From a virus: a stretch of DNA of 29,842 nucleotides. Both the position numbers and the translations under genes were made by a program. The notes under the pieces were generated by a model. The model was given only the letters and a program-made list of their open reading frames with translations, was not told where the DNA came from and did no database searches. Where the stretch lies: the IMG/VR virus record IMGVR_UViG_3300028678_000171, positions 1 through 29,842 of that record. The stretch is one strand, 5' to 3'. Positions 268 through 18,169 of this stretch are shown in pieces. Position 1 is the first letter of the stretch; each line of letters starts with the position of its first letter.

Positions 268-2247
268 ATGGTTGAATATTATAATAACATGTTGGCAATT
301 CAGTCAAGAAGCCTTATTGATAATGGCATAATGAGTGAAGATACATATAGAAAGCTAACAGTAAGGAAACAAATCAATGTGATTAGGCGGGGATGCTATG
401 GTACTCCAGCATTGATTGACTATAAAACCATGCCTGAGCGCTTTCGGAAGAAAATAGAAATGGAATTTGGTGATATCACCAAAAAGACCATAACGAATGT
501 ACTTCAACAATTGATTATTCAGGATTCGGCAGCGATGGAGTTTTATAGCTCATATGAAGTTGAGCCGGACAGATACCTGCCGGCATCGGAGGACAACAAT
601 GTAGTAAAAGAATACTATACCAATGCAATCGTACTGAATGCTATTCATAGTTTGATTTCTGACCGTGTAACAATGCGCAGGGCTTTGGGTGGAACTACAA
701 CAGGTATTTGGAATGATATAGCCAAGCGAGTGATGGACCTAGACCGAAAAGAATACCCTCATACATTGCCTAGCAATGACAGAAGACTACATGAAAAATA
801 CAAACAGTACCTGAAAGAGGGATATGGATGTTTGATTCACCGTAATTTCTGCAATAAGAATTCTGCCAAGGTAAATGATGATCAAAAACAATCGATTCTA
901 AATGAATTACTAGCTGATCCACGCAATTTGGATAATGAACAGGTAGCAGGATTGTACAATATGATTGCATCCACCTTGCAGTGGGATAAAATTACCGGTG
1001 CTGCTGTGGCTAAGTGGAGAAAGAAATATGCAACACAAATATTCGCAGGAAGACGCGGAGCTGTTGAATTCAGAAACAAAAAAACAATGCAGGTGAAACG
1101 ATCTGCCCCGACATGTCCACTTTATTACTGGACATTGGATGGTTGGGATGTGGAACTATTGTTTCAGCAGTTTGAAAATGGTAAAACAACCTATCATCAC
1201 CGGCCAACGGTGGTTGTAGTGCTTGACCCAAGTGTAAAATATATTATTGGTTATGCAATAGGTACCCATGAAACTCCGGAGTTGATTACAATGGCTCTAC
1301 GGAATGCGGAATGCCACACAGCGCAACTATTTGGAAAGATGTACCGGACACACCAGATACAAAGTGACCGATACTCCATAAAGAAAATGACTCCATTTTA
1401 CGAGGCAGTATCAGAACTGAGCACTCCCGCCCGCGCCAAGAACGCAAAAGCAAAGGTTATTGAACCCTATTTTAAAAGCATTAATCACGATTATTGCCAA
1501 TACGAAAAGAACTGGAGCGGTTACGGTATCACCTCTGCCAAAGACAAGCAGGCAAATACGGAATATCTGAACAAATACAAGAATGAATTTCCCGATTATG
1601 CAGGCGCATGTGCCCAGGTTGTTCAGATCATTGAAAAAGCAAGGGAAAAAAAGATAGATGAATATATGAAGTTGTGGGAAGCTACGGCGGAAGATAATAA
1701 ACTGGAAATGTCCATAGAAAACTACCTGTACACATTCGGAGAAACAAAAGGAAAGCCCAACCAACGTGAAAGTGATGGGTTACACAAAACAATCAACGGT
1801 ATAAAACACACGTGGGAGTGTTGGAATCCAAATTTCAGAAATTACGATCACCTGAAGTTTGACATATACTTTGACCCTACAAATATGGATAAGGTATTAG
1901 CGGTTAGCGAAGATAAAACACACCGGTTCCTGCTTGAAAAAGTATATGTGCAGCCAATGGCATTGAAAGACAGAAAGCCGGGTGATAGTGGAGAAATACA
2001 ACGGGTACGAGAGTTCAACGCCAACCTTGAAAAGCAAGTATCTGATTTCAGAGCACAAAATATACAGAACATGGCTGATATCATGCCTGTATTGCTCCAA
2101 AACGATACGCTTCAGAAATTCTGTATAACAGACTCTAAAGGACAGCATAAAAACAATAGGAATGAAGGACGATCGAATACAAAAAAACTGAAAGCTGCCG
2201 CTGTAGACGTTCAGGATGAAGAGCAAGATATTTACAACATATACTAA
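268..2247 (+). CDS. MuA-like DDE transposase
   Basis: This 659-residue protein would catalyse strand transfer for integration and replicative transposition of the phage genome. The length matches MuA (663 residues). The central RNase H-like rve domain carries the likely catalytic triad D291 (in TLDGWD), D367 (in IQSDRY) and E399 (in KVIEPYF). The N-terminal ~280 residues would hold the DNA-end-binding helices, and the lysine-rich C-terminus suits the MuB-contacting domain III. MuB follows 14 bases downstream, which supports the call. The ATG at 268 has no strong Shine-Dalgarno, as is usual in Bacteroidota. The assignment is by motif order and context; the family fit is strong. Confidence 0.93.
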   Translation: MVEYYNNMLAIQSRSLIDNGIMSEDTYRKLTVRKQINVIRRGCYGTPALIDYKTMPERFRKKIEMEFGDITKKTITNVLQQLIIQDSAAMEFYSSYEVEPDRYLPASEDNNVVKEYYTNAIVLNAIHSLISDRVTMRRALGGTTTGIWNDIAKRVMDLDRKEYPHTLPSNDRRLHEKYKQYLKEGYGCLIHRNFCNKNSAKVNDDQKQSILNELLADPRNLDNEQVAGLYNMIASTLQWDKITGAAVAKWRKKYATQIFAGRRGAVEFRNKKTMQVKRSAPTCPLYYWTLDGWDVELLFQQFENGKTTYHHRPTVVVVLDPSVKYIIGYAIGTHETPELITMALRNAECHTAQLFGKMYRTHQIQSDRYSIKKMTPFYEAVSELSTPARAKNAKAKVIEPYFKSINHDYCQYEKNWSGYGITSAKDKQANTEYLNKYKNEFPDYAGACAQVVQIIEKAREKKIDEYMKLWEATAEDNKLEMSIENYLYTFGETKGKPNQRESDGLHKTINGIKHTWECWNPNFRNYDHLKFDIYFDPTNMDKVLAVSEDKTHRFLLEKVYVQPMALKDRKPGDSGEIQRVREFNANLEKQVSDFRAQNIQNMADIMPVLLQNDTLQKFCITDSKGQHKNNRNEGRSNTKKLKAAAVDVQDEEQDIYNIY

Positions 2248-2261
2248 AAAAAACGATACAC

Positions 2262-3128
2262 ATGGAAACTATTCAGAAAAAACAAATCACAGAGACGCTT
2301 AGTGCATACATAGACCGATACGGAAGCCAGAACAAAGCGGCTAATTCATTGAAAAACGTAAGCTCGGCTACCTTAAGCCAGATGATGAATGGAAATTGGG
2401 AGCTAATTAATGATGATATGTGGCGCAATGTGGCCGCTCAAATAGGTCATCAGTTTGAAAAGTGGATTTATGCCGAAATAAGCACCACCCGTCAGTTGAA
2501 AATGATTTTGACTGACTCCAAAGAAAATCACCTGGTCAGTTCGGTGCTTGGTGATGCCGGAACGGGTAAAACTGAGTTTTTGAAACTTATTTCGAAAGAA
2601 AAAAACTCCTACCTGCTGAAATGTTCCGAATACTGGAATAAAAAGCAATTTGCCATTGAATTATTGCAGTCGCTAGGCAAAGAACCCGACGGGATGAACA
2701 TAAACCGAATGATGCAGGAGATCATTGCAACGCTAAAGCGTCAGGTAGACCCGATAATCTACATTGATGAAGTTGATAAGCTATCGGACGAACTGCTTTA
2801 TTTCTTTATCACCTTGTACAACGAACTGGAAGACTATTGCTCCATCATATTGACTTCAACATCTTATTTCAAAAAGCGTATTGAAAACGGAGTGGCAAAG
2901 AATAAAAAGGGATTCAGGGAAATTTGGAGCCGGTTAGGCAGAAAGTTTATTGAACTAACCGGAATAACAGCCAACGACATTACGGCCATTTGTGTGGCTA
3001 ATGGAATTTCAGAGAATAAAATAATCAGCGAAATAATTGAAGACAGCGAAGGTGATCTGCGACGGGTAAAGAAGAAAGCCCAATCGTATAAGCGGTCGAA
3101 AAGAAACAAAGAAAAGGGAATCAATTAA
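2262..3128 (+). CDS. MuB-like AAA+ target-DNA activator ATPase
   Basis: At 288 residues it is close to MuB (312). Residues 8-60 look like a lambda-Cro/MuB-type helix-turn-helix (TETLSAY...SSATLSQMMNG). A P-loop GDAGTGKT lies at 97-104 and a Walker B strand IIYIDE at 165-170. In Mu, this ATPase forms filaments on target DNA, delivers it to MuA and provides target immunity. The gene directly follows the transposase gene and precedes a second ATPase gene by 11 bases, so the three are probably co-transcribed. The C-terminus is lysine/arginine-rich, consistent with DNA contact. Confidence 0.9.
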   Translation: METIQKKQITETLSAYIDRYGSQNKAANSLKNVSSATLSQMMNGNWELINDDMWRNVAAQIGHQFEKWIYAEISTTRQLKMILTDSKENHLVSSVLGDAGTGKTEFLKLISKEKNSYLLKCSEYWNKKQFAIELLQSLGKEPDGMNINRMMQEIIATLKRQVDPIIYIDEVDKLSDELLYFFITLYNELEDYCSIILTSTSYFKKRIENGVAKNKKGFREIWSRLGRKFIELTGITANDITAICVANGISENKIISEIIEDSEGDLRRVKKKAQSYKRSKRNKEKGIN

Positions 3129-6283: not shown

Positions 6284-6754
6284 ATGAAAACAATACAGAT
6301 TTCAGAACAAAATGCAAGGAGGTTGTACAAGGATGCAACTCCGGAATTCAAGGCAGCACTTGAAGATACTTTTGGAAAAGCTTTCTTTTCCGAAAACATT
6401 ATGGATCGTATAAAATCATACGAAGACGCCTGTTTAGAGCTGGGCGAAACGCCACTAGACGAATCCAATTTCAAACTACTTAGTTTTACCGATGATGAAA
6501 TCACATATCGGAAAATAAAGACTATCACACGCGCATTGAATGAAGGATGGAAGCCTGACATGCTAAACGCTGATCAATATAAGTGGTATCCTTGGTTTAA
6601 AGTGTCTGCCGGCGGGTTCGTTTTCCATGCTACGTATTGCGCTTGCTCGTCTGCGTCTGCGGGTTCCGCCTCGCGCCTTTGCTTTAAGAGTGACGAATTA
6701 GCCACTTATGCAGGGAAACAATTCTTACAATTATATTCATATTTTATTAAATAA
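6284..6754 (+). CDS. DGR target protein 1 (carries VR1)
   Basis: A 156-residue protein whose residues 108-133 are encoded by variable repeat VR1. Domains in order: a variable helical N-terminus; a linker with WKPDMLNADQYKWYPWF (residues ~89-105) that is conserved in target 2; the VR segment opening SAGGFVF and ending SRLCF; and a closing helix ELATYAGKQFLQLYSYF. The VR is internal, not at the extreme C-terminus as in classic C-type-lectin DGR targets. There is no signal peptide or membrane segment, so a cytoplasmic or virion-internal protein is the simplest reading. Its diversified residues presumably form a binding surface. Function unknown. Confidence 0.85.
   Translation: MKTIQISEQNARRLYKDATPEFKAALEDTFGKAFFSENIMDRIKSYEDACLELGETPLDESNFKLLSFTDDEITYRKIKTITRALNEGWKPDMLNADQYKWYPWFKVSAGGFVFHATYCACSSASAGSASRLCFKSDELATYAGKQFLQLYSYFIK
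6605..6683 (+). repeat. DGR variable repeat VR1
   Basis: This 79-base segment aligns gap-free to the TR at 7201-7279. There are 17 differences, all at TR adenines (TR positions 22, 26, 31, 35, 38, 40, 41, 46, 47, 52, 53, 57, 61, 62, 64, 71, 75). The first 21 bases, which lack adenine in TR, are identical. Shared identity starts 3 bases earlier (GTG at 6602-6604 matches 7198-7200). Confidence 0.96.
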
Positions 6755-6785
6755 TCAGCCGAAAGGCACAAACAATTTTGAACAC

Positions 6786-7169
6786 ATGGAAAAAGTAGAA
6801 GTAACACAAATGGAAAGCATCAAAACAGTAGAAGATGCTTTGAACGTAACAGGTATGCCTGCAACACCTGAATTCAACGAAGTACCTGAAGAACTTCGCG
6901 AATATTTCAAAGCCGTGTATGAAGCGGTAGTAATCACCAAAGCGTTAGTTGGAAATTGGAAGGCTGACTGGAACGACTGGGATCAACGTAAATGGTTTCC
7001 TTGGTTTGATATGCAGTCTGCCGGCGGGTTCGTTTTCTTTGCTGCGAGTTACGATTACTCGACTGCGCGTGCGGGTGACGCCTCGCGCCTTTGCTTTCCC
7101 ACTGAGGAAATGGCAGAGTATGCAGGTAAAACGTTCACAGACGTTTATTCAAGAATGATCTTGAAATAA
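6786..7169 (+). CDS. DGR target protein 2 (carries VR2)
   Basis: From the ATG at 6786 the product is 127 residues; an upstream in-frame start at 6708 would overlap target gene 1 by 47 bases and is less likely. It is a paralogue of target 1: the linker WKADWNDWDQRKWFPWF, the VR-encoded SAGGFVF...ASRLCF (residues 78-104) and the closing helix EMAEYAGKTFTDVYSRM all correspond, while the N-termini differ. The gene lies 31 bases after target 1 and 31 bases before the TR, in the target-TR-RT order typical of DGRs. No secretion or membrane signal is seen. Confidence 0.85.
   Translation: MEKVEVTQMESIKTVEDALNVTGMPATPEFNEVPEELREYFKAVYEAVVITKALVGNWKADWNDWDQRKWFPWFDMQSAGGFVFFAASYDYSTARAGDASRLCFPTEEMAEYAGKTFTDVYSRMILK
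7017..7095 (+). repeat. DGR variable repeat VR2
   Basis: Gap-free 79-base match to the TR with 14 differences, every one at a TR adenine (TR positions 22, 23, 26, 28, 32, 40, 47, 52, 53, 57, 61, 64, 71, 75). Seven changes are identical to those in VR1, four of them grouped at the 3' end (57, 64, 71, 75). Confidence 0.96.
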
Positions 7170-7182
7170 TCAAAATAGGCTG

Positions 7183-7298
7183 TTTGTCTTTGTGAGGGTG
7201 TCTGCCGGCGGGTTCGTTTTCAATGATACGAATTACGATAACTCGAATGCGAATGCAGGTAACACCTCGCACCTATGCTAAAAATATACAAAGACAAA
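7183..7298 (+). ncRNA. Putative structured DGR template RNA segment
   Basis: An 11-bp perfect inverted repeat brackets the TR: TTTGTCTTTGT at 7183-7193 and ACAAAGACAAA at 7288-7298. Beyond a small internal loop, GGC at 7178-7180 can pair with GCC at 7300-7302. A second small hairpin (5-bp stem 7303-7307/7312-7316) follows. DGR template RNAs are known to be structured around the TR; that this stem forms in the RNA is inferred. Confidence 0.55.
7201..7279 (+). repeat. DGR template repeat TR
   Basis: The donor repeat is recognised because it keeps adenine at all 20 positions where either VR differs and lies between the targets and the RT, 106 bases before the RT start. Read in the VR frame it has six Asn codons AAT/AAC, the codon class that gives the widest amino-acid choice after adenine randomisation without producing stops. 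It has no start codon and meets TAA at 7279-7281, so it is not itself a gene. Confidence 0.95.
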
Positions 7299-7385
7299 GG
7301 CCTTGGCACTTGCCAAAAAATAACAAACTTCAAAAGGTGCTGGTAGGGTAACCGAACGCTCCGATACGAAAAGCAAAGAAATGCA

Positions 7386-8369
7386 ATGAAAAGATACAAT
7401 AACTTGTATGATCAGGTATGCAGCGAGGAAAATATGGTTCTCGCTTACGAAAAAGCCCGAAAGGGCAAAGCGCATACATATGGTGTTCGGCTCTTTGAAA
7501 AAGAGTTGGAAAGCAACATGAGACAGTTACAGGATGAATTGATAAACGGAACTTACCGGACTTCGGAATATAGCGTATTTACCATTTATGATCCGAAAGA
7601 GAGGGAAATTTACCGATTGCCATTTCGGGACAGAGTAGTCCATCATGCTATTATGAATGTGATGGAGCCAATATGGACAAGTATTTTCATTCAGCATACA
7701 TACAGCTGTATTAAAGGACGTGGAATACATGCCGTTTTAAAAGCGATTAAACGGGATTTAAAAGACCTTGAAAATACACAGTTTTGTCTGAAAATGGATG
7801 TAAGAAAGTTTTATCCGTCAATTGATCATGATGTACTGAAAGGAATTATCAGGCGAAAGGTAAAAGATAACCGGTTGCTTGAATTGCTTGATCTGATTAT
7901 TGACAGTGCGCCAGGCGTTCCAATAGGTAATTATTTATCGCAGTTTTTTGCGAACCTGTATCTGAGTTATTTTGATCATTGGTTGAAAGAATCTAAGCAA
8001 GTAAAATATTACTACCGATATGCCGATGACATGGTGATACTGGCACCCGATAAGCCTTATTTACACGGTTTACTGGTTGATATAAACGATTATCTTACAG
8101 ACAAGCTAAACCTACAACTAAAGGGCAATTATCAGGTATTCCCTGTCGATTCTCGCGGTATTGACTTCGTGGGTTACAAATTCTATCATACGCATATATT
8201 GATGCGAAAATCGATTAAAAAACGGCTTTGCAGAAAGGCTGCAAAGTTGAATAAAAAGGATATTGATGCAAAAAGTTACCGGATGCAAATAGCTCCCTGG
8301 TTAGGGTGGGCGAAACACTGCGACTCGAAGCATCTACTTAAAAAAGTACTAAATGAAAAAGTTCTCTGA
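7386..8369 (+). CDS. DGR reverse transcriptase
   Basis: A 327-residue RT. Motifs in order: an N-terminal RLPFRDRVVHHAI region (77-89); motif A with catalytic D138 in LKMDVRKFYPSID; the DGR-type motif 4 PIGNYLSQ (179-186), where group II intron RTs usually have a QG-type sequence; the catalytic YADD box at 212-215; and a thumb-side GIDFVGYKF near 258. It would reverse-transcribe the TR RNA with errors at adenines and supply cDNA for replacement of VR1 and VR2. No maturase or endonuclease domain is fused. Its last 17 bases overlap the next gene. Confidence 0.95.
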   Translation: MKRYNNLYDQVCSEENMVLAYEKARKGKAHTYGVRLFEKELESNMRQLQDELINGTYRTSEYSVFTIYDPKEREIYRLPFRDRVVHHAIMNVMEPIWTSIFIQHTYSCIKGRGIHAVLKAIKRDLKDLENTQFCLKMDVRKFYPSIDHDVLKGIIRRKVKDNRLLELLDLIIDSAPGVPIGNYLSQFFANLYLSYFDHWLKESKQVKYYYRYADDMVILAPDKPYLHGLLVDINDYLTDKLNLQLKGNYQVFPVDSRGIDFVGYKFYHTHILMRKSIKKRLCRKAAKLNKKDIDAKSYRMQIAPWLGWAKHCDSKHLLKKVLNEKVL

Positions 8370-8670
8370 TTTGGGCGTAAAGCCGCCTGAAGATAAAAAT
8401 ATATTCAATGTTCCGGTAATTTCTATACAAGACGTAATAAACGTCGAAATACAAGTGCTGGACTTTGAAGCAAACGTAAAGACAGCACATGGAGATGGAC
8501 GCTATATTTTGAAAGTGAAGCATGAAGACAGGGAGTGCAAGTTTTTTACGAATGCTACTCCCATAAAACAGGCACTTGAACAGATTAATAAAAATGATCT
8601 TCCATTTACAACAATCATTAAACAACAACGATTCGGCAGCGGATCGGGTAAAACATTTTATTTTACATGA
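8353..8670 (+). CDS. Small protein overlapping the RT gene, candidate DGR accessory
   Basis: Unrecognised 105-residue protein. After a short lead, residues ~25-105 look like alternating beta strands with basic patches (YILKVKHEDRECKFFT) and a glycine-rich turn near the end (RFGSGSGKTFYF). This pattern would suit a small nucleic-acid-binding barrel, but I cannot name a family. The start overlaps the RT gene by 17 bases, which suggests translational coupling with it. Because no Avd-type helical-bundle gene is visible near the TR, this is the best positional candidate for an RT partner. That role is inference. Confidence 0.6.
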   Translation: MKKFSDLGVKPPEDKNIFNVPVISIQDVINVEIQVLDFEANVKTAHGDGRYILKVKHEDRECKFFTNATPIKQALEQINKNDLPFTTIIKQQRFGSGSGKTFYFT

Positions 8671-11792: not shown

Positions 11793-12245
11793 TTATAATG
11801 CTGTTCGATCTTCGAATTCGCATTTGAATGTGATGCGTTCCACATAGATGCCATCTTTTCGGTTTTCTTTGCGCTGTGAGACCCGATATAATGGGTCGAA
11901 GTCATCGGTACCCCATCCTTGCAATGCTGCGTAAGCGGCCGTAATGGTATCGTGAAATGCAAGGTCTTTTTCTCGAATGTCATCACCGGCAATGGATGAG
12001 GTTCGTTGTGTAGGTGTTTCGAATGCCAGACGTATAATTACGTTTGCTTTACACTCTTGTATTTTACCCCCAAAGTCCAGGTCTTTGCATTCGTTGAACT
12101 CAATGCCAATAATGGCACACGGGAACTTTACGGCAGGTCGTTCGCCTGTAGGTACGTCGAGTTGTCCCATCTCCTGATCAATCCAGGAGAGAGCCGGAAC
12201 GGTAGTTTTTAGTTGTGCCAGTATGGCGTTATAGATTACTTTCAT
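11793..12245 (-). CDS. Mu gp37-like head-tail/tail-terminator candidate
   Basis: The ATG at 12245 gives 150 residues (an in-frame GTG 9 bases upstream is possible). The N-terminus VIYNAILAQLKTTVP and the mid region FPCAIIGIEF followed by ANVIIRLAFET are of the type seen in short tail-terminator or Mu gp37 (DUF1834)-like proteins, which close the tail tube or join it to the head. The family call is from pattern and position as the last gene of the leftward head operon. Its stop abuts the bidirectional terminator. Confidence 0.5.
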   Translation of the reverse strand: MKVIYNAILAQLKTTVPALSWIDQEMGQLDVPTGERPAVKFPCAIIGIEFNECKDLDFGGKIQECKANVIIRLAFETPTQRTSSIAGDDIREKDLAFHDTITAAYAALQGWGTDDFDPLYRVSQRKENRKDGIYVERITFKCEFEDRTAL

Positions 12246-12250
12246 ATTCA

Positions 12251-12306
12251 ACACTAATTTTACGGATTAATACTAATTACACGAATTCAGACGAATTACA
12301 CTAATT
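12251..12306. repeat. ACGAATTA-type low-complexity spacer, copy D1
   Basis: The spacer is made of repeated units AC(A/G)AATT(A/T) and CTAATT with small variations. It resembles spacers at 20431 and 23471. Confidence 0.6.
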
Positions 12307-12801
12307 TGGTTTGAGTATTTTCTTTATTTCTTTTACTATTTTGTTTTCAATGTTTTCGCGTAGTACTTTTGATTCGCCCATGAATTTGCGTTTTTTCATG
12401 ATGAATGGTTTTCGGCCATATACGTTGGCACCTTCGCCAAAGTTATGAACTGAGGCGTACGGGGCAGCATCGGTAATTCGAACCCCACTTGCAATGTAAT
12501 TGTACGATATTGAATTTTGCAGCTCTTTAGTCTCTCCACTCAGAATTTTAGCCGTAGTACGTGCGGCTGAATACTTTCCTGTCTGACCTGAATGACCGTA
12601 CCACGGAGAATCCGGATTACGGCGTTTTACATCGGGCCATTTTTCTAAACTTTCATCGGTGAATCCTTCATTTTGAAATGATTCTTTGAAATGGTTTACC
12701 GCCTCAACACCCATAATGGTTTTGATGTCATCGCCCTGAACAAACTCATCGAGTTTTTTCATTTGGCCAGTGAATTGGGTTGAGAAATCGGCTATATCCA
12801 C
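12301..12801 (-). CDS. Phage virion morphogenesis protein (gpG/tail-completion type)
   Basis: 166 residues, apparently from a GTG start at 12801 because no in-frame ATG precedes it before a stop codon. The C-terminal part holds the signature of the virion morphogenesis family: YASVHNFGEG followed by basic KPFIMKKRKFMG. In Mu the homologue is gpG; in P2 the related protein is tail-completion gpS. It lies between the portal/F fusion and the gp37-like gene, as expected in a Mu-type head module. Confidence 0.75.
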   Translation of the reverse strand: MDIADFSTQFTGQMKKLDEFVQGDDIKTIMGVEAVNHFKESFQNEGFTDESLEKWPDVKRRNPDSPWYGHSGQTGKYSAARTTAKILSGETKELQNSISYNYIASGVRITDAAPYASVHNFGEGANVYGRKPFIMKKRKFMGESKVLRENIENKIVKEIKKILKPN

Positions 12802-12808
12802 TTTTTTA

Positions 12809-12834
12809 ATGATAAATTATGAATGATAAATTAT
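12809..12834. repeat. ATGATAAATT tandem spacer
   Basis: Two units of ATGATAAATTAT-type sequence between the virion morphogenesis and portal genes, partly overlapping the portal 3' end. Confidence 0.5.
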
Positions 12835-15077
12835 TTTCCTGTGTTCTTCTTACTTGAAAGATATTGTTCTAATAGTTTAGCAGCATCCAACATAACATCA
12901 TTACGAACGGATTCATCGGTATTGGTGTAATATGAATTATCCTCTATGTTTACAAAACTGGCGGTTTCAGCCGGGTTGTTTTGGAATTGAGGATCGACAT
13001 AATCACCATCCGGAACATCCGTTGGGTCTTTGTCGGATTGCTTTACCGAACATTGGCAATTCCAATCGCTTGGCGGCATGTGATCATCCCACCATGGATG
13101 ATTGAACGGTAATATAGTACCGACGTATTTTAAGTGCGATTCGCGCTCATTGGCTGCCGTACTTTCAACGTATTCCAAATTAGGGTACAGGTGTAAGGTT
13201 TTTTCATAACCCTTCAAATTAGCCGCTATACGAGCCGAACGAACAGCTTGATTGTATTCGGTCTGTAACCATCTACCATCATATTTTTCGGATACCTGCA
13301 ATGCCAGTTTTTTAAACTGACTGAATGAACGCAATTTTCCATTTTCATCGGTCAATAATGCAACTATCTCTTTTGTTTGCAGATGGTTTTTAAAGGCAGC
13401 AAAAACAGCCGTATTATTTTTAAACCTATCAACAAATTCGGAATCATCTACCGTCTTTAATGACGTGTCGATTCCAGCCTGCAACTTGTTATTTGTAACG
13501 TCAAACAGATTTTTGTTTATCAGTTCGTTGCGCTTTTCTTCGTCATCATACAACTCACGAATAGCCCGTTTTATCAGATCATTGATGTTGATGGTGTCAG
13601 ATAAGTCCAACTCAGAACCCCTCCGCGCTTCGCGCTCGTCCCCTTCGGAAGGGGACATCTTAATGTTTGTGGTTATATTGTTGTTCGATTTCTCGTTCAA
13701 GTTTGCCCGGCTCCCCAGCGTCCGGGCGTTTGCGAAAAAATCAACAATCCCCCGAATGAATTTATTTTCGGTGTCAGAAAGTTTGGCGGTTGGCTTAACC
13801 CCTCCGCTACGCTTGTCCCCTTTTTTCAAGGGGTCATTTGGGGACGGTGGTGACTTTGGCGACTTGTCAGGTACAGGCGGAATATCAACCGGTGGAACAT
13901 CAGTTGGTGGAACGTCCGTAGGCGAAACGGGTGCAGGTGAAGCAGCTTTTCGGGCTATAACATCTGTACCTTTTGCTTCGGGTATTCCGAACTTTTTCTG
14001 AAAATAATAAGCCGGGATTTCGATGATGTCAGATAGTGAAACTAATTCGTCAACAGTAAGGTCTTTGAGTGCTTTAGGGAAAACAAACGAACCACCATGT
14101 ACTTTGAATCCACGGGCTTCGAGTATTGGTTTTACTTTTTTATTCAGAATCCGTTGTACAAAACGCATGTCCTGTTTGTTGACTTCATCTTCTACATCCT
14201 GATGTACTTCGCTCTGCGAACGACTTGAACCGTCGAGTGTAGTCATTGTATTACTCAGGACCGTTACTAACATAGCCTCTTTGAGCTCCGACATAAAGTC
14301 TTTGTAAATAGACGAATTAGTAGAACGTCCATTGTCGGCCATCTCAACGTCCGTTTCTTTCGGAACGACCATACTGGCAGCAGCACCCTGTTCTTTGAAA
14401 GCCTGCTCTAACTGTTTGCGCGCTTCCTGATCGTAGATGCTATATTTACCAATTCGCTGAGGCATTCCAAAGAGTTCGACCATTTGTGCCCAGTCGGAAA
14501 TACCACCCCTCATCATGATGACGTAGGGAGCTGCACGAAGCAATAAACCGTACTTATCTTTACGGTCGAGTACTTCGACAATGTTTTGAAGTGATTCGTA
14601 AGATATGGAACCGTCGATGTCATTTTGCATGACAGCCACTGTTTTAGTAAGTGGACGTATGTGTTTGCGTGGAACGCTAAAAACCTGTAGTCCGTCGGAA
14701 AAATCTAATTGAATCAACGAAACCCGTTGAAAAATTGCCATTAGTATTTCATGTAGTAAATACTCGAAATCGTCGGTGTCGATGAGGTCGATTATTTCCT
14801 GTACTTCAGTTCCGTCGGCTAACTGGAACGTAAGATCGGAAGATGTAACCGCCCTGATGCGACGTTCTACGGCATCCCAAAGACGACCGTCGGTAAGTAT
14901 TCCTTCATACAAATCATACAGCAATGTCCACCGGTCCATTTCGGCGCTTTGAAGTGCGGTTTTCCACTTACCCATATCAAGCAGTTGCCTAACTACTCTG
15001 TTTACGGATATCTGATTTATAATTATACCCTGCGGTGCTTTCTCCGTTGGAACTAAGTCTACTTTATTTTTAGCCAT
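12831..15077 (-). CDS. Portal (DUF935, gp29-like) fused to Mu F-like head protein
   Basis: This 748-residue protein joins two functions that are separate genes in Mu. Residues ~1-385 are a DUF935/gp29 portal (GILTDGRLWDAVERRIRAVT, MVELFGMPQRIGKY). A proline-rich linker at ~385-415 has repeated PTDVPP units. Residues ~590-715 match the Mu F minor head protein (YNQAVRSARIAANLKGYE, WWDDHMPPSDWNCQC). Two A-type palindromes are read through in frame, encoding ~415-427 and ~475-488. The first lies at the end of the linker; the second sits in a low-complexity stretch. The fusion would tether F to the portal ring. It lies 11 bases downstream of the gp36-like gene. Confidence 0.85.
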   Translation of the reverse strand: MAKNKVDLVPTEKAPQGIIINQISVNRVVRQLLDMGKWKTALQSAEMDRWTLLYDLYEGILTDGRLWDAVERRIRAVTSSDLTFQLADGTEVQEIIDLIDTDDFEYLLHEILMAIFQRVSLIQLDFSDGLQVFSVPRKHIRPLTKTVAVMQNDIDGSISYESLQNIVEVLDRKDKYGLLLRAAPYVIMMRGGISDWAQMVELFGMPQRIGKYSIYDQEARKQLEQAFKEQGAAASMVVPKETDVEMADNGRSTNSSIYKDFMSELKEAMLVTVLSNTMTTLDGSSRSQSEVHQDVEDEVNKQDMRFVQRILNKKVKPILEARGFKVHGGSFVFPKALKDLTVDELVSLSDIIEIPAYYFQKKFGIPEAKGTDVIARKAASPAPVSPTDVPPTDVPPVDIPPVPDKSPKSPPSPNDPLKKGDKRSGGVKPTAKLSDTENKFIRGIVDFFANARTLGSRANLNEKSNNNITTNIKMSPSEGDEREARRGSELDLSDTININDLIKRAIRELYDDEEKRNELINKNLFDVTNNKLQAGIDTSLKTVDDSEFVDRFKNNTAVFAAFKNHLQTKEIVALLTDENGKLRSFSQFKKLALQVSEKYDGRWLQTEYNQAVRSARIAANLKGYEKTLHLYPNLEYVESTAANERESHLKYVGTILPFNHPWWDDHMPPSDWNCQCSVKQSDKDPTDVPDGDYVDPQFQNNPAETASFVNIEDNSYYTNTDESVRNDVMLDAAKLLEQYLSSKKNTGK
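13617..13656 (+). repeat. CCCCTCCGC-type palindrome, copy A2 (inside portal fusion)
   Basis: Two nested palindromes: GCGC-TT-GCGC type at the left and CCCCTTCGGAAGGGG at the right, ending ACAT. Read on the - strand it encodes SPSEGDEREARRGSE-like sequence in the portal fusion. Confidence 0.8.
13799..13834 (+). repeat. CCCCTCCGC-type palindrome, copy A3 (inside portal fusion)
   Basis: CCCCTCCGCTACGCTTG then CCCCTTTTTTCAAGGGG, degenerated in the centre. Read on the - strand it encodes DPLKKGDKRSGGVK-like sequence just after the proline-rich linker. Confidence 0.75.
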
Positions 15078-15088
15078 TATAAATTTAT

Positions 15089-15514
15089 TTAAAACTGGTT
15101 ATCTCGTTTAGGATTTGAACTAAAAGTAATAAGATCGGTTTTTTGTTCCACAGGAAGAGGTGGAAGATCGGGTATGAATTCACCCCGTTGAACTCCTTTA
15201 AGCCATGATACAGCCCGGTTATATCTATCTTCCCGAATTGTCATACTTATATTTACATTACAAATATTGATAAAATGCCATACTGCAATGTCTTTTACAA
15301 AAATGATTAGCAGTGCATTTCGTGTATCTGTATCGTTATTTGTCGGCTTTGATTTAGCAAACTCGGTGGCAATATCAAAAGCAGATAGGTAACTTTTAGT
15401 TTCGACATACGCACCGTCGATAGCAGCCTGCAACATGGTTTCATCTCCATTGCTAATAGCTTCAATAGAATCAACGCCAAGGTGGGTTGTTATTTCGTCA
15501 GGACTAATGTACAT
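15089..15514 (-). CDS. DUF1320 / Mu gp36-like protein
   Basis: 141 residues. The N-terminus YISPDEITTHLG and the following helical pattern (LQAAIDGAYVETKSYLSAFDI, LLIIFVKDIAVWHFIN, YNRAVSWLKGVQRGE) fit the DUF1320/Mu gp36 family, a head-completion or connector protein. ATG at 15514. It lies 11 bases before the portal fusion on the same strand. The family fit is good; the exact structural role is inferred from Mu-type order. Confidence 0.75.
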   Translation of the reverse strand: MYISPDEITTHLGVDSIEAISNGDETMLQAAIDGAYVETKSYLSAFDIATEFAKSKPTNNDTDTRNALLIIFVKDIAVWHFINICNVNISMTIREDRYNRAVSWLKGVQRGEFIPDLPPLPVEQKTDLITFSSNPKRDNQF

Positions 15515-15555
15515 GATAGTTGATAGTTTACAGTTGATAGTTGAAAGTGATAGTT
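15515..15555. repeat. TGATAGTT tandem spacer
   Basis: Imperfect repeats of TGATAGTT (five recognisable units) fill the 39-base spacer between two - strand genes. Confidence 0.55.
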
Positions 15556-15940
15556 ATTTTAAGTCTTTAAATCGTTTATATATAATGTCAATACCTTTCA
15601 CTTCCATGTTGGTATAAGTAGGGTGTGAGTTTACGTGTCCCTGTGTGTCGTACAATTGTATTCCTACCATCTGAGAGACTTTAAGACCCGTACGAACGCC
15701 TTTGGTATGGTTGCGCCAGTATTGTATTTGTTTTCGGTTTAATGCCCTGTATTTACCTCCGATGAAATAAATATAGGTTCTCCGCCCTCCACTATTATAT
15801 GATACATGAAAAGTAGATGAGGCTAATTTCTCAGCCTGTTTAATGGCTTTTTCGAAATGATATCGGTTTCCTCTCCATTTGATAATTACCGTTGCGATAC
15901 GTGGAGCCAGCCACATAATAAATTTTTGTTGTGCGTTCAT
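15554..15940 (-). CDS. Hypothetical head-module protein
   Basis: From the ATG at 15940 the product is 128 residues, 19 bases after the terminase stop; the open frame upstream overlaps the terminase and is not likely used. The protein is strongly basic and aromatic (IIKWRGNRYHFEKAIKQAEK, RRTYIYFIGGKYRALNRKQI). I do not recognise it. Its place between large terminase and gp36-like gene suggests a head or packaging accessory, but nothing in the sequence proves this. Confidence 0.6.
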   Translation of the reverse strand: MNAQQKFIMWLAPRIATVIIKWRGNRYHFEKAIKQAEKLASSTFHVSYNSGGRRTYIYFIGGKYRALNRKQIQYWRNHTKGVRTGLKVSQMVGIQLYDTQGHVNSHPTYTNMEVKGIDIIYKRFKDLK

Positions 15941-15959
15941 GTGTGTTTTGAATTTGTAT

Positions 15960-17498
15960 TTAGTATCTGTTATTCCGTGATTTTCCGAATCCGGAAATAA
16001 GGCTTTCACCAGTTCCGGTAACGGATAATATTTTATTGTTGCAAATAAATACTCCACCTTCAATAGCATCAGGTCCATCGGCGGGGGCTTTCATGGTGGC
16101 GCTAAAAAGTTTAAATTGCTCTTTCAGGCGTTGCATGTGCGGATTATTTTCCTCTTTTATATTGAAGACTAATCTTCCGGTACGAACCAACATTTCTAAT
16201 CCGCCCTCTATACGACTAAACTTATCTGGTTTTTTACGTTCGTCGGGTATTATACCAATATGTCCGCGCTCAGCACCTTTGGTGTAAAACAGTGGCATAA
16301 ATACCTGTTCGAAGAAAGGACCCTGCAAGGTATTATTTTCGATGTAATTGTACACTTGTGTACGGTCTTTCACATAGTCGCGTATAAAGTAAAACCAGTC
16401 GACAAATTCATCATTAGTAACCCTATCAAGATAACCGGTGATGACATAAAACTTATTATCCAGGTATCCAATGAGCCAAAGAGCTTTTGTGGAATTCTTA
16501 CGTTCTCCTGTATTATTGCTTGGACTTGGGTCGGCATAGGCAACCAGAAAACGGAATTTATTTAAAGGCGGAATATCACTAAATGTGAGTTCTTTGAAAA
16601 CATCGCCCACAGAAATGGGATTATTCATGTATTCACCCTCGAATGCCATTGTACTCATGGTTGACCGAATGCGTTCAATATTTTCTTTGCTGTTCTTTTC
16701 CGGCCAAGAGCTTTCACCTTTCTTGTCGACAATATTGATAATATCAACTTTATCGGCTTTGGCACATGCACGTACTACGCAGCAATCATTTGCAATCTTA
16801 TTACCCAACCAAACTACCTGAAAAGGTTTAGAAATTGACCGAGTTGGATATACGGCTTTTTCGTACCATTCCCATCGCTTATCAATTACATCTTTATTGC
16901 GTACATCTTCGTCCGTGTCAATATCCGATATAATTATTTTATCGGGTCGTACTTCCTCGTTACGGCTTCCACGTGGTGATTGTCCGGCTCCAATAGCTAA
17001 AAAAGAAACTCCCTGTGTGGTTACAAAATCGCCCGATGACCAGCTTCCCGGATTCTGTTGAACGCCATAATCATTAATGATACGTTCGTTTCTTTCCAGA
17101 TTGATTTTAAAAGGTTCTAACAGGTTTTCAGCCTTATCATAACTATTTGAAATAAAAAGGATATTCCGTTTTACTCCGGTTAGCGTTTGATAAAGAGTAT
17201 TCATCATTTCCACCACATCCTTAGCAAGTTCGCGCGCCCACATACGTACTTCTATCCATTCGGGATTATCAAGTTCTCGCTTCGTTGCTGCTTTGTGAAA
17301 GGATGCTGCTGGTGCATAGCAGTATTTAGGAAAATAATATCGCTTCCATTCTTCGGGATTCGATTCTAATTTGGCAACACGTTTTTTTCGCTGATCTTCA
17401 CTTTCGTTTTGATCAGCTGATACTGATTCTAAGAAGTTGGAAAAATAAATATTCCAATCCTGAACAGCTTGTTTATCCATTGCCTTAGTTGCTGCCAT
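15960..17498 (-). CDS. Terminase large subunit (Mu gp28-like)
   Basis: 512 residues. The ATPase part has a degenerate P-loop WARELAKDVV (87-96), followed by strand NILFISNSYD and Walker B-like IIISDID (188-194) with acidic D192/D194. The nuclease part starts at FLVAYADPSPS, with the first metal-binding aspartate D323, and ends with DGPDAIEGG (D477 is a likely third acidic residue). It would package phage DNA headful from the integrated or transposed copy. The small terminase gene lies 2 bases upstream. The order small-large-portal is standard. Confidence 0.88.
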   Translation of the reverse strand: MAATKAMDKQAVQDWNIYFSNFLESVSADQNESEDQRKKRVAKLESNPEEWKRYYFPKYCYAPAASFHKAATKRELDNPEWIEVRMWARELAKDVVEMMNTLYQTLTGVKRNILFISNSYDKAENLLEPFKINLERNERIINDYGVQQNPGSWSSGDFVTTQGVSFLAIGAGQSPRGSRNEEVRPDKIIISDIDTDEDVRNKDVIDKRWEWYEKAVYPTRSISKPFQVVWLGNKIANDCCVVRACAKADKVDIINIVDKKGESSWPEKNSKENIERIRSTMSTMAFEGEYMNNPISVGDVFKELTFSDIPPLNKFRFLVAYADPSPSNNTGERKNSTKALWLIGYLDNKFYVITGYLDRVTNDEFVDWFYFIRDYVKDRTQVYNYIENNTLQGPFFEQVFMPLFYTKGAERGHIGIIPDERKKPDKFSRIEGGLEMLVRTGRLVFNIKEENNPHMQRLKEQFKLFSATMKAPADGPDAIEGGVFICNNKILSVTGTGESLISGFGKSRNNRY

Positions 17499-17500
17499 GC

Positions 17501-17953
17501 TTAAATCCTTTTTAAAACATGTTTAATAAAGTCATCGAAAACACTTGCCACTATTTTCGAATTTCCGGGATTAATAGGGCGAAGCCAGTTCAGCACACGT
17601 TTACATACTTCGACTATATCGGCAATGCTTGCCTCGGTTTCCATTGATTTAATGGCATTAGTCAATTTTCCGATTGTGTCTGCTTCTTTTGAATTGGCGA
17701 AACGGCTTCCCGGCTCGCGCCCCATTATATTAGTTGTCAACTCATCGAGTTGAGCATACAACCTGTTTAGTTGAGATTCGCGGGTAATAAGCATTGATTG
17801 TTTGAGCGTTTTCCACTTGCCAACCTCTACCCACTTATTAATGGTTACAGCAGAACAGCTAACCTTTTCGGCTATTTCTTTTTGCGTTAAGCTTCCTTTT
17901 AAATAGAGTTCTTTTGCCCACTCCTTTTTTTGGTCGTTTTTTAAATCTGACAT
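17501..17953 (-). CDS. Terminase small subunit-like HTH protein
   Basis: The ATG at 17953 (MSDLKNDQKKEWAKELYLKG) gives 150 residues; an upstream in-frame TTG is less likely. Residues ~20-45 are a helix-turn-helix (LTQKEIAEKVSCSAVTINKW) of the type found in small terminases of Mu-like phages (DUF1804/gp27-like). The C-terminal half is helical and would oligomerise. It is the first gene of the leftward operon and ends 2 bases before the large terminase start. Confidence 0.75.
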   Translation of the reverse strand: MSDLKNDQKKEWAKELYLKGSLTQKEIAEKVSCSAVTINKWVEVGKWKTLKQSMLITRESQLNRLYAQLDELTTNIMGREPGSRFANSKEADTIGKLTNAIKSMETEASIADIVEVCKRVLNWLRPINPGNSKIVASVFDDFIKHVLKRI

Positions 17954-18169
17954 TATGTCTTTATTAATTTGAAGCAAAATAACTGCTTTTAAGGCATACG
18001 ATAAAAAATACAGGACAAAATGGCAGTACTTTTTTGGTAGGTGATTTTTATAGAGTTTTTTTGCAGTGTAATTAAACAGACAGGGAAACTACTCCGATTT
18101 GATCATTTCCTAAATGGGGACAATTGGGACGGGGACGACAATTAAAAACCAATTAAACGACAATTAAAG
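17954..18169. promoter_or_regulatory. Divergent intergenic region between head operon and capsid/tail operon
   Basis: The 216 bases separate the start of the - strand terminase operon from the start of the + strand protease gene, so they should hold two outward promoters. I see AT-rich blocks but no clean TAnnTTTG box. Near the minus-strand start a TTATTTTG sequence is one base short of the consensus. A phage-encoded late activator would explain weak boxes. Bases 18116-18167 are a spacer repeat. Confidence 0.45.
18116..18167. repeat. GACAATT-type spacer repeat, copy E1
   Basis: Repeated GACAATT and GGGGAC units just before the protease gene; a related block precedes the spanin gene at 21592. 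Confidence 0.5.

Follow-up and report, generated by a model that had tools for sequence, protein, structure and literature searches.

A diversity-generating retroelement with one template and two adjacent paralogous targets among the early genes of a Mu-like phage

Phage diversity-generating retroelements (DGRs) are usually explained by switches in host tropism. A cassette in the early region of a phage, in which a single template repeat (TR) appeared to serve two adjacent paralogous genes, raised the question of what such a DGR diversifies and to what end. We analyzed this cassette in its window, which denotes here the whole 29,842-base IMG/VR record. PHROG profile matches revealed a Mu-type transposase (268-2247; phrog_310, E = 2.6e-33) and a DNA transposition protein, the transposition ATPase (2262-3128; phrog_296, E = 6e-47), together spanning 268..3128 on the plus strand. 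The window phage, a phage of Bacteroidota, thus carries MuA/MuB-type transposition genes and is Mu-like, as the first-pass annotation had proposed. Other recognizable genes encode portal/head, terminase, major head protein, endolysin and tape measure. The neck, portal/head and terminase genes (11793-17977) lie on the minus strand, and the early, capsid and tail genes on the plus strand. The cassette is located downstream of the transposition genes among the early genes, which agrees with the early-region placement of the targets given in that annotation.

The TR (7201-7279) and two variable repeats, VR1 (6605-6683) and VR2 (7017-7095), align without gaps over 79 bases. All 17 differences between TR and VR1 and all 14 between TR and VR2 fall on TR adenines (20 in the 79 positions), exactly as had been counted from the sequence beforehand; the chance of every difference landing on these adenines is 1.4e-14 for TR-VR1 and 3.1e-11 for TR-VR2. 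VR1 and VR2 differ from each other at 13 positions, each of them a TR adenine. Under free extension, VR1 (6602-6687) matched TR 7198-7283 over 86 bases with 19/19 differences at TR adenines, while VR2 (7016-7095) matched TR 7200-7279 over 80 bases with 14/14; the alignment to VR1 gives the fullest extent of the TR (7198..7283), and all three repeats are on the plus strand. Downstream lies a DGR-type reverse transcriptase (RT) of 327 aa (7386..8369, plus strand; phrog_1423, E = 3.3e-134; PF00078, E = 1.4e-14), which contains the IGNYLSQ and YADD motifs previously read from it and is 37% identical over 97% to Brt of phage BPP-1. The window cassette is a DGR. It shares with the BPP-1 system (mtd-VR, avd, TR, brt) a DGR-type RT, a TR just before the RT, TR/VR differences confined to adenines and a structured TR-RT spacer. 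It differs from BPP-1 in having two small targets rather than the tail protein Mtd, a predicted OB-fold gene after the RT with no bAvd found, a stem that closes the TR and a position among early genes.

The first target gene, T1 (6284..6754, plus strand, 156 aa, phrog_11581), carries VR1 near its 3' end. The second, T2 (6786..7169, plus strand, 127 aa from the ATG at 6786; phrog_11581, E = 2.4e-16), contains VR2 and is a T1 paralogue, 42% identical in alignment. phrog_11581 is a family of unknown function, and no Pfam family matches T1 or T2. An AF2 model of T1 is helical (pLDDT 86), with the VR part modeled at low confidence (about 53) between an N-terminal helical part predicted with confidence and helices at the C terminus. 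Comparison of this model with the PDB gave no significant match and no fold with Z >= 3, and in BFVD it matched only uncharacterised phage proteins. PDB sequence searches with profiles of the targets and the OB-fold protein gave weak matches only, and NCBIfam held nothing useful for either.

T1 has a homologue in gp84 of phage BI-TP1, to which it is 28% identical along its entire length (E = 4e-18). gp84 is itself a DGR target, and the TR that serves it, ~55 kb away, also serves an Mtd-like tail protein. Because one TR serves both, a lectin-type receptor-binding surface could accommodate the variable segment; for this reason, and because the VR part of the model has low confidence, we do not claim a non-lectin fold for T1 from its helical AF2 model. 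The neighbors of gp84 are methyltransferase, resolvase and tRNA-ligase genes, a setting that matches the description of the non-structural DGR target of Quimbyvirus, for which the authors drew a link to phage-host conflict (PMC8008677). The window cassette has in common with BI-TP1 and the Quimbyvirus type (PMC8008677) a DGR target apart from the structural genes and near methyltransferase, tRNA-ligase and repair genes. In those phages, however, the one TR is shared by an Mtd-like tail protein and a distant second target, whereas in the window both targets are of non-structural type and adjoin the RT.

Related cassettes in phages that lack Mu genes nearby occupy comparable neighborhoods: one adjoins a DNA primase (L057), and others lie beside an Erf annealing protein, helicase and methyltransferase (L066), ParB-like genes and terminase (L114), or an antirepressor, methyltransferase and helicase (L118). 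An N-terminal hydrophobic stretch was found in 0/124 aligned target-family members. The replication and regulation setting, the missing hydrophobic stretch, the homology to gp84 and the likeness to Quimbyvirus favor an intracellular role for T1 and T2. We lean, by a modest degree, towards this role as the better-supported reading over a virion adhesin, gene position being no proof. The same DGR could instead diversify virion or surface adhesins that switch host tropism, like Mtd of BPP-1, which we consider an appreciable though lesser possibility. Most viral DGR targets in a large survey carry a tail-protein annotation (PMC8144416), the BI-TP1 TR is common to the Mtd-like tail protein and gp84, and the T1 homologue in phage Versailles is annotated 'tail protein'. 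The Versailles gene, however, also sits among recombination genes, and T1 and T2 are small, are without tail or export features, and lie beside transposition, replication and regulation genes both in the window and in unrelated phages. These points shift the balance towards intracellular targets.

We next consider how common the twin-target layout is. RT searches yielded 80 viral and 64 genome loci, which clustered at 95% RT identity into 99 clusters, 84 of them with complete flanks. At least two target-family ORFs were present in 53/84 of these clusters, and 51/53 twin-target clusters also had the OB-fold gene. The two-target layout is therefore the most frequent one in this sample of relatives of the RT; since the sample was built around this RT type and is hence biased, 53/84 should not be read as the proportion among DGRs at large. 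Spacing is nearly constant in relatives, with VR2 mostly ~180-190 and VR1 mostly ~560-660 bases before the TR. Two-target cassettes are also found elsewhere, making up about 13% of DGR cassettes by a figure cited in PMC10743442. The first-pass annotation had singled out one TR with two adjacent paralogous targets as unusual, a view that these frequencies overturn.

On the RT tree (midpoint root, some long branches), the twin layout occurs not only in Bacteroidales but also in early-branching lineages assigned to Chitinophagaceae, Flavobacteriaceae, Weeksellaceae, Leadbetterellaceae and Spirosomataceae; the cassette layout recurs across many Bacteroidota families. Nested among the twin-layout lineages is a group of 19 rows (97/94 support) that lacks this target family and in which many members have TRs of ~116 nt. 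The twin layout as a single clade was ruled out, because the label needs 13 changes on this midpoint-rooted tree with its long branches. Several loci depart from the standard arrangement. L118 and L128 possess extra VR-bearing target-family genes at a distance of 3.7-9 kb from the TR; those of L118 are found on both sides of the RT. In L037 and L038, a third target-family ORF without a detected VR lies upstream of T1, while in L080 and L081 the RT match is split in two pieces and adjoins three VR-bearing targets. L007, L008 and L009, whose RT is 89% identical to the window RT, have one target-family ORF and no detected TR/VR pair, possibly a one-target or decayed cassette.

Other characterized systems resemble the window cassette in part. 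The Hankyphage DGR (PMC6199706) likewise belongs to a Mu-like transposable Bacteroides phage; it differs in having a single VR in a lectin-domain protein of >2,200 aa, 117-bp repeats and an Avd-like small ORF. The tentaclins (PMC10743442) and the Bacuni phages (PMC8143477) share the use of one TR for two targets, but their targets are C-type lectin proteins interpreted as host-adhesion or receptor-binding proteins. The tentaclin targets further differ in being of different topologies (PMC10743442), and the Bacuni phages in carrying an Avd gene and in placing one target a long way from the RT (PMC8143477).

Comparison of relatives revealed whether the VRs are rewritten. L013 and L014 match without a difference in the TR and in 1,910 aligned flanking bases, and their sole differences are at 6/21 VR2 adenine positions. 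L032 and L033 differ at 11/20 VR1 adenine positions and at no VR2 position, while L032 and L034 differ at 9/20 VR2 adenine positions and at no VR1 position. All three pairs have 0 differences at VR non-adenine positions and 0-8 bases of difference in the flanks, and the restriction of VR changes to adenines in these near-identical pairs has p values of 4e-11 to 1e-15. Because one VR changes at a time, VR1 and VR2 are rewritten independently, in line with the separate rewriting suggested by the first-pass annotation and with the 13 differences between them in the window. Across 98 distinct TR/VR pairs from relatives, compared position by position, mismatches at non-adenine TR positions were found in just 22/5,849 cells. 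Neither of the two patterns that had been named as arguing against a working DGR, namely many non-adenine substitutions in relatives and invariant VRs across sister phages, was found. In a related single-target DGR with a 116-nt TR (L079 and L091, around 7530-7845), 1,918 flanking bases are identical and 14/29 VR adenine positions differ. These results demonstrate DGR activity in the lineage: in relatives, VRs are rewritten while the TR stays fixed.

For the window's own phage, two contigs (L002 and L003) are identical to the window across the region, both VRs included, so present activity in this phage is only inferred. The earlier description of the cassette as 'active-looking' thus holds for the lineage, as near-identical relatives show, while exact copies of the window phage's own region display no variation. 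The three identical copies would fit a DGR that is dormant in the window phage, with old VR/TR differences; however, identical contigs may represent one population sampled repeatedly, assembly loses some VR variants, and the RT, TR, spacer and stem are all intact. Moreover, sister L004, whose flanks are 9% diverged from those of the window, differs from it at 12/24 VR1 and 14/20 VR2 adenine positions and at 0/24 TR adenines. We consider dormancy improbable. That the VR differences are assembly chimeras or the product of ordinary strain recombination without DGR action is a very slim prospect, because, even though many loci are metagenomic contigs in which repeats assemble poorly, the changes are confined to template adenines and affect a single VR at a time, the TR and all VR non-adenine positions being unchanged in three pairs, and the adenine-only pattern extends across the 98 TR/VR pairs.

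The same 98 pairs uncovered a stretch near the 3' end of the TR (7257..7275, plus strand) with four positions at which the TR has A and the VR a fixed non-A base. In VRs of relatives, TR adenine 7257 is G in 80/80, 7264 is G in 84/90 (with A retained in 5), 7271 is G in 92/92 and 7275 is T in 62/62. At the core TR adenines, by comparison, A is retained in ~15-70% of VRs and the remainder is spread over the other bases. Positions 7257, 7264, 7271 and 7275 are fixed TR/VR differences without mutational scatter. Removing them leaves a core of 16 adenines, changed at 13/16 in VR1 and 10/16 in VR2, and all 13/13 differences between VR1 and VR2 fall in this core. Thus, although the counts of 17 and 14 differences were exact, only 13 and 10 of them represent true diversification. 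In the window, two of the four fixed differences are synonymous (GCA/GCG and CTA/CTT). Selection on the protein alone is therefore not a sufficient explanation, and 7257 is flanked by diversified positions, which makes the fixed differences more than a boundary effect. By analogy with IMH*/IMH of BPP-1, the four positions look like marks that separate TR from VR.

Between TR and RT, the spacer is occupied by a full-length match to the Rfam RT-17 RNA (RF03020; 7299..7380, plus strand; 50.8 bits against a gathering threshold of 40.4, E = 1.1e-8), which includes a hairpin at 7305-7314 whose pairs covary. The Rfam model is limited to the portion 3' of the TR. Outside it, we found a stem that encloses the whole TR in its loop: the 5' arm (7178..7193, plus strand) begins 9 nt past the T2 stop codon and forms 14 pairs with the 3' arm (7288..7302, plus strand), which overlaps the first bases of RT-17. 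Across 42 sequences, both-sided changes occur in 10/14 pairs and 93.5% of cells are paired, in an alignment that was built without structure from the same sequences in which the stem was first spotted. The covariation score of the stem and adjoining hairpin together was 0.413, against 0.186 (sd 0.011; 0/500) for shuffles, which ignore relatedness, and 0.10-0.14 for slid versions, which keep it. Minimum-energy folding of the window RNA recovers the stem as well. The BPP-1 spacer serves to recruit RT-Avd and to prime cDNA, whose synthesis is ended by a motif within the 3' end of the avd mRNA (PMC12875486). The 5' arm of the stem could be a counterpart of this stop motif.

The Avd accessory protein is present in most DGRs, though not all, and HRDC- or MSL-type factors are known alternatives to it. 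The Avd model PF05635 was uninformative (the BPP-1 control was undetected), and we used PF22296 (bAvd) instead. With this single Pfam model, which a diverged Avd could escape, bAvd was absent from the window and from 15 other phage records of the RT lineage, while the BPP-1 control was detected at 2e-37. Whole bacterial genomes with the cassette had few PF22296 matches above the cut-off, counted irrespective of linkage to the cassette. The gene that overlaps the RT end (8353..8670, plus strand, 105 aa, phrog_19665), and that in relatives usually begins near the RT end, encodes a predicted OB-fold protein and candidate accessory factor. Its AF2 model (pLDDT 90) has the order strand-strand-strand-helix-strand-strand and matches mostly OB proteins (PRD1 P12, Z 5.2; SSB, Z 5.1; RPA, PriB and LEF-3), these matches being modest (all Z < 8, Foldseek E > 0.2). 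We found no OB-fold DGR accessory in the literature consulted, a scope that leaves out the 2018 survey of DGR accessory genes. From its modeled fold, this protein is probably a cDNA or RNA binder that substitutes for Avd.

A functional DGR in the order T1(VR1)-T2(VR2)-TR-spacer RNA-RT-OB protein is very probably the explanation of the locus. The TR would be transcribed in an RNA whose TR flanks pair into the TR-closing stem, followed by the RT-17 spacer structure, pairings demonstrated by covariation. If the steps follow the BPP-1 model, the spacer would recruit and prime the RT, which would make an error-prone cDNA copy of the TR, the errors falling on template adenines. At the TR edge, synthesis may be halted by the 5' side of the stem, and the OB-fold protein would probably handle the cDNA or RNA as an Avd substitute. 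The cDNA would then replace the matching end of T1 or T2, each gene separately, an outcome seen in the variation between relatives, with the fixed differences towards the 3' end probably acting as IMH*/IMH to protect the TR. The products would be two small early proteins, probably located in the cytosol, whose recognition surface varies. We would give them slightly better than an even chance of acting within the cell against host factors that themselves vary, defence systems for example.

The twin layout is ordinary for this group. The less ordinary features are the small, non-structural-type target pair without signal peptide, the predicted OB-fold neighbor without detectable Avd and the covarying TR-closing stem. 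More tentatively, and at somewhat less than even chance, these cassettes may constitute a phylum-wide, self-contained type of Bacteroidota-phage DGR, in which paralogous intracellular early targets are hypermutated for an intracellular arms race rather than for receptor binding, an OB-fold protein replaces Avd and a stem closes the TR. If the only targets are two small, apparently non-virion early proteins, phages would also hypermutate proteins that act inside the cell, for which the literature we consulted so far holds one suggestion (Quimbyvirus). The T1/T2 pair makes this idea testable, through the binding partners of the two proteins and through whether their variation alters escape from host defences. 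The OB-fold neighbor and the TR-closing stem, in turn, are concrete candidates for template and cDNA handling in DGRs without Avd.
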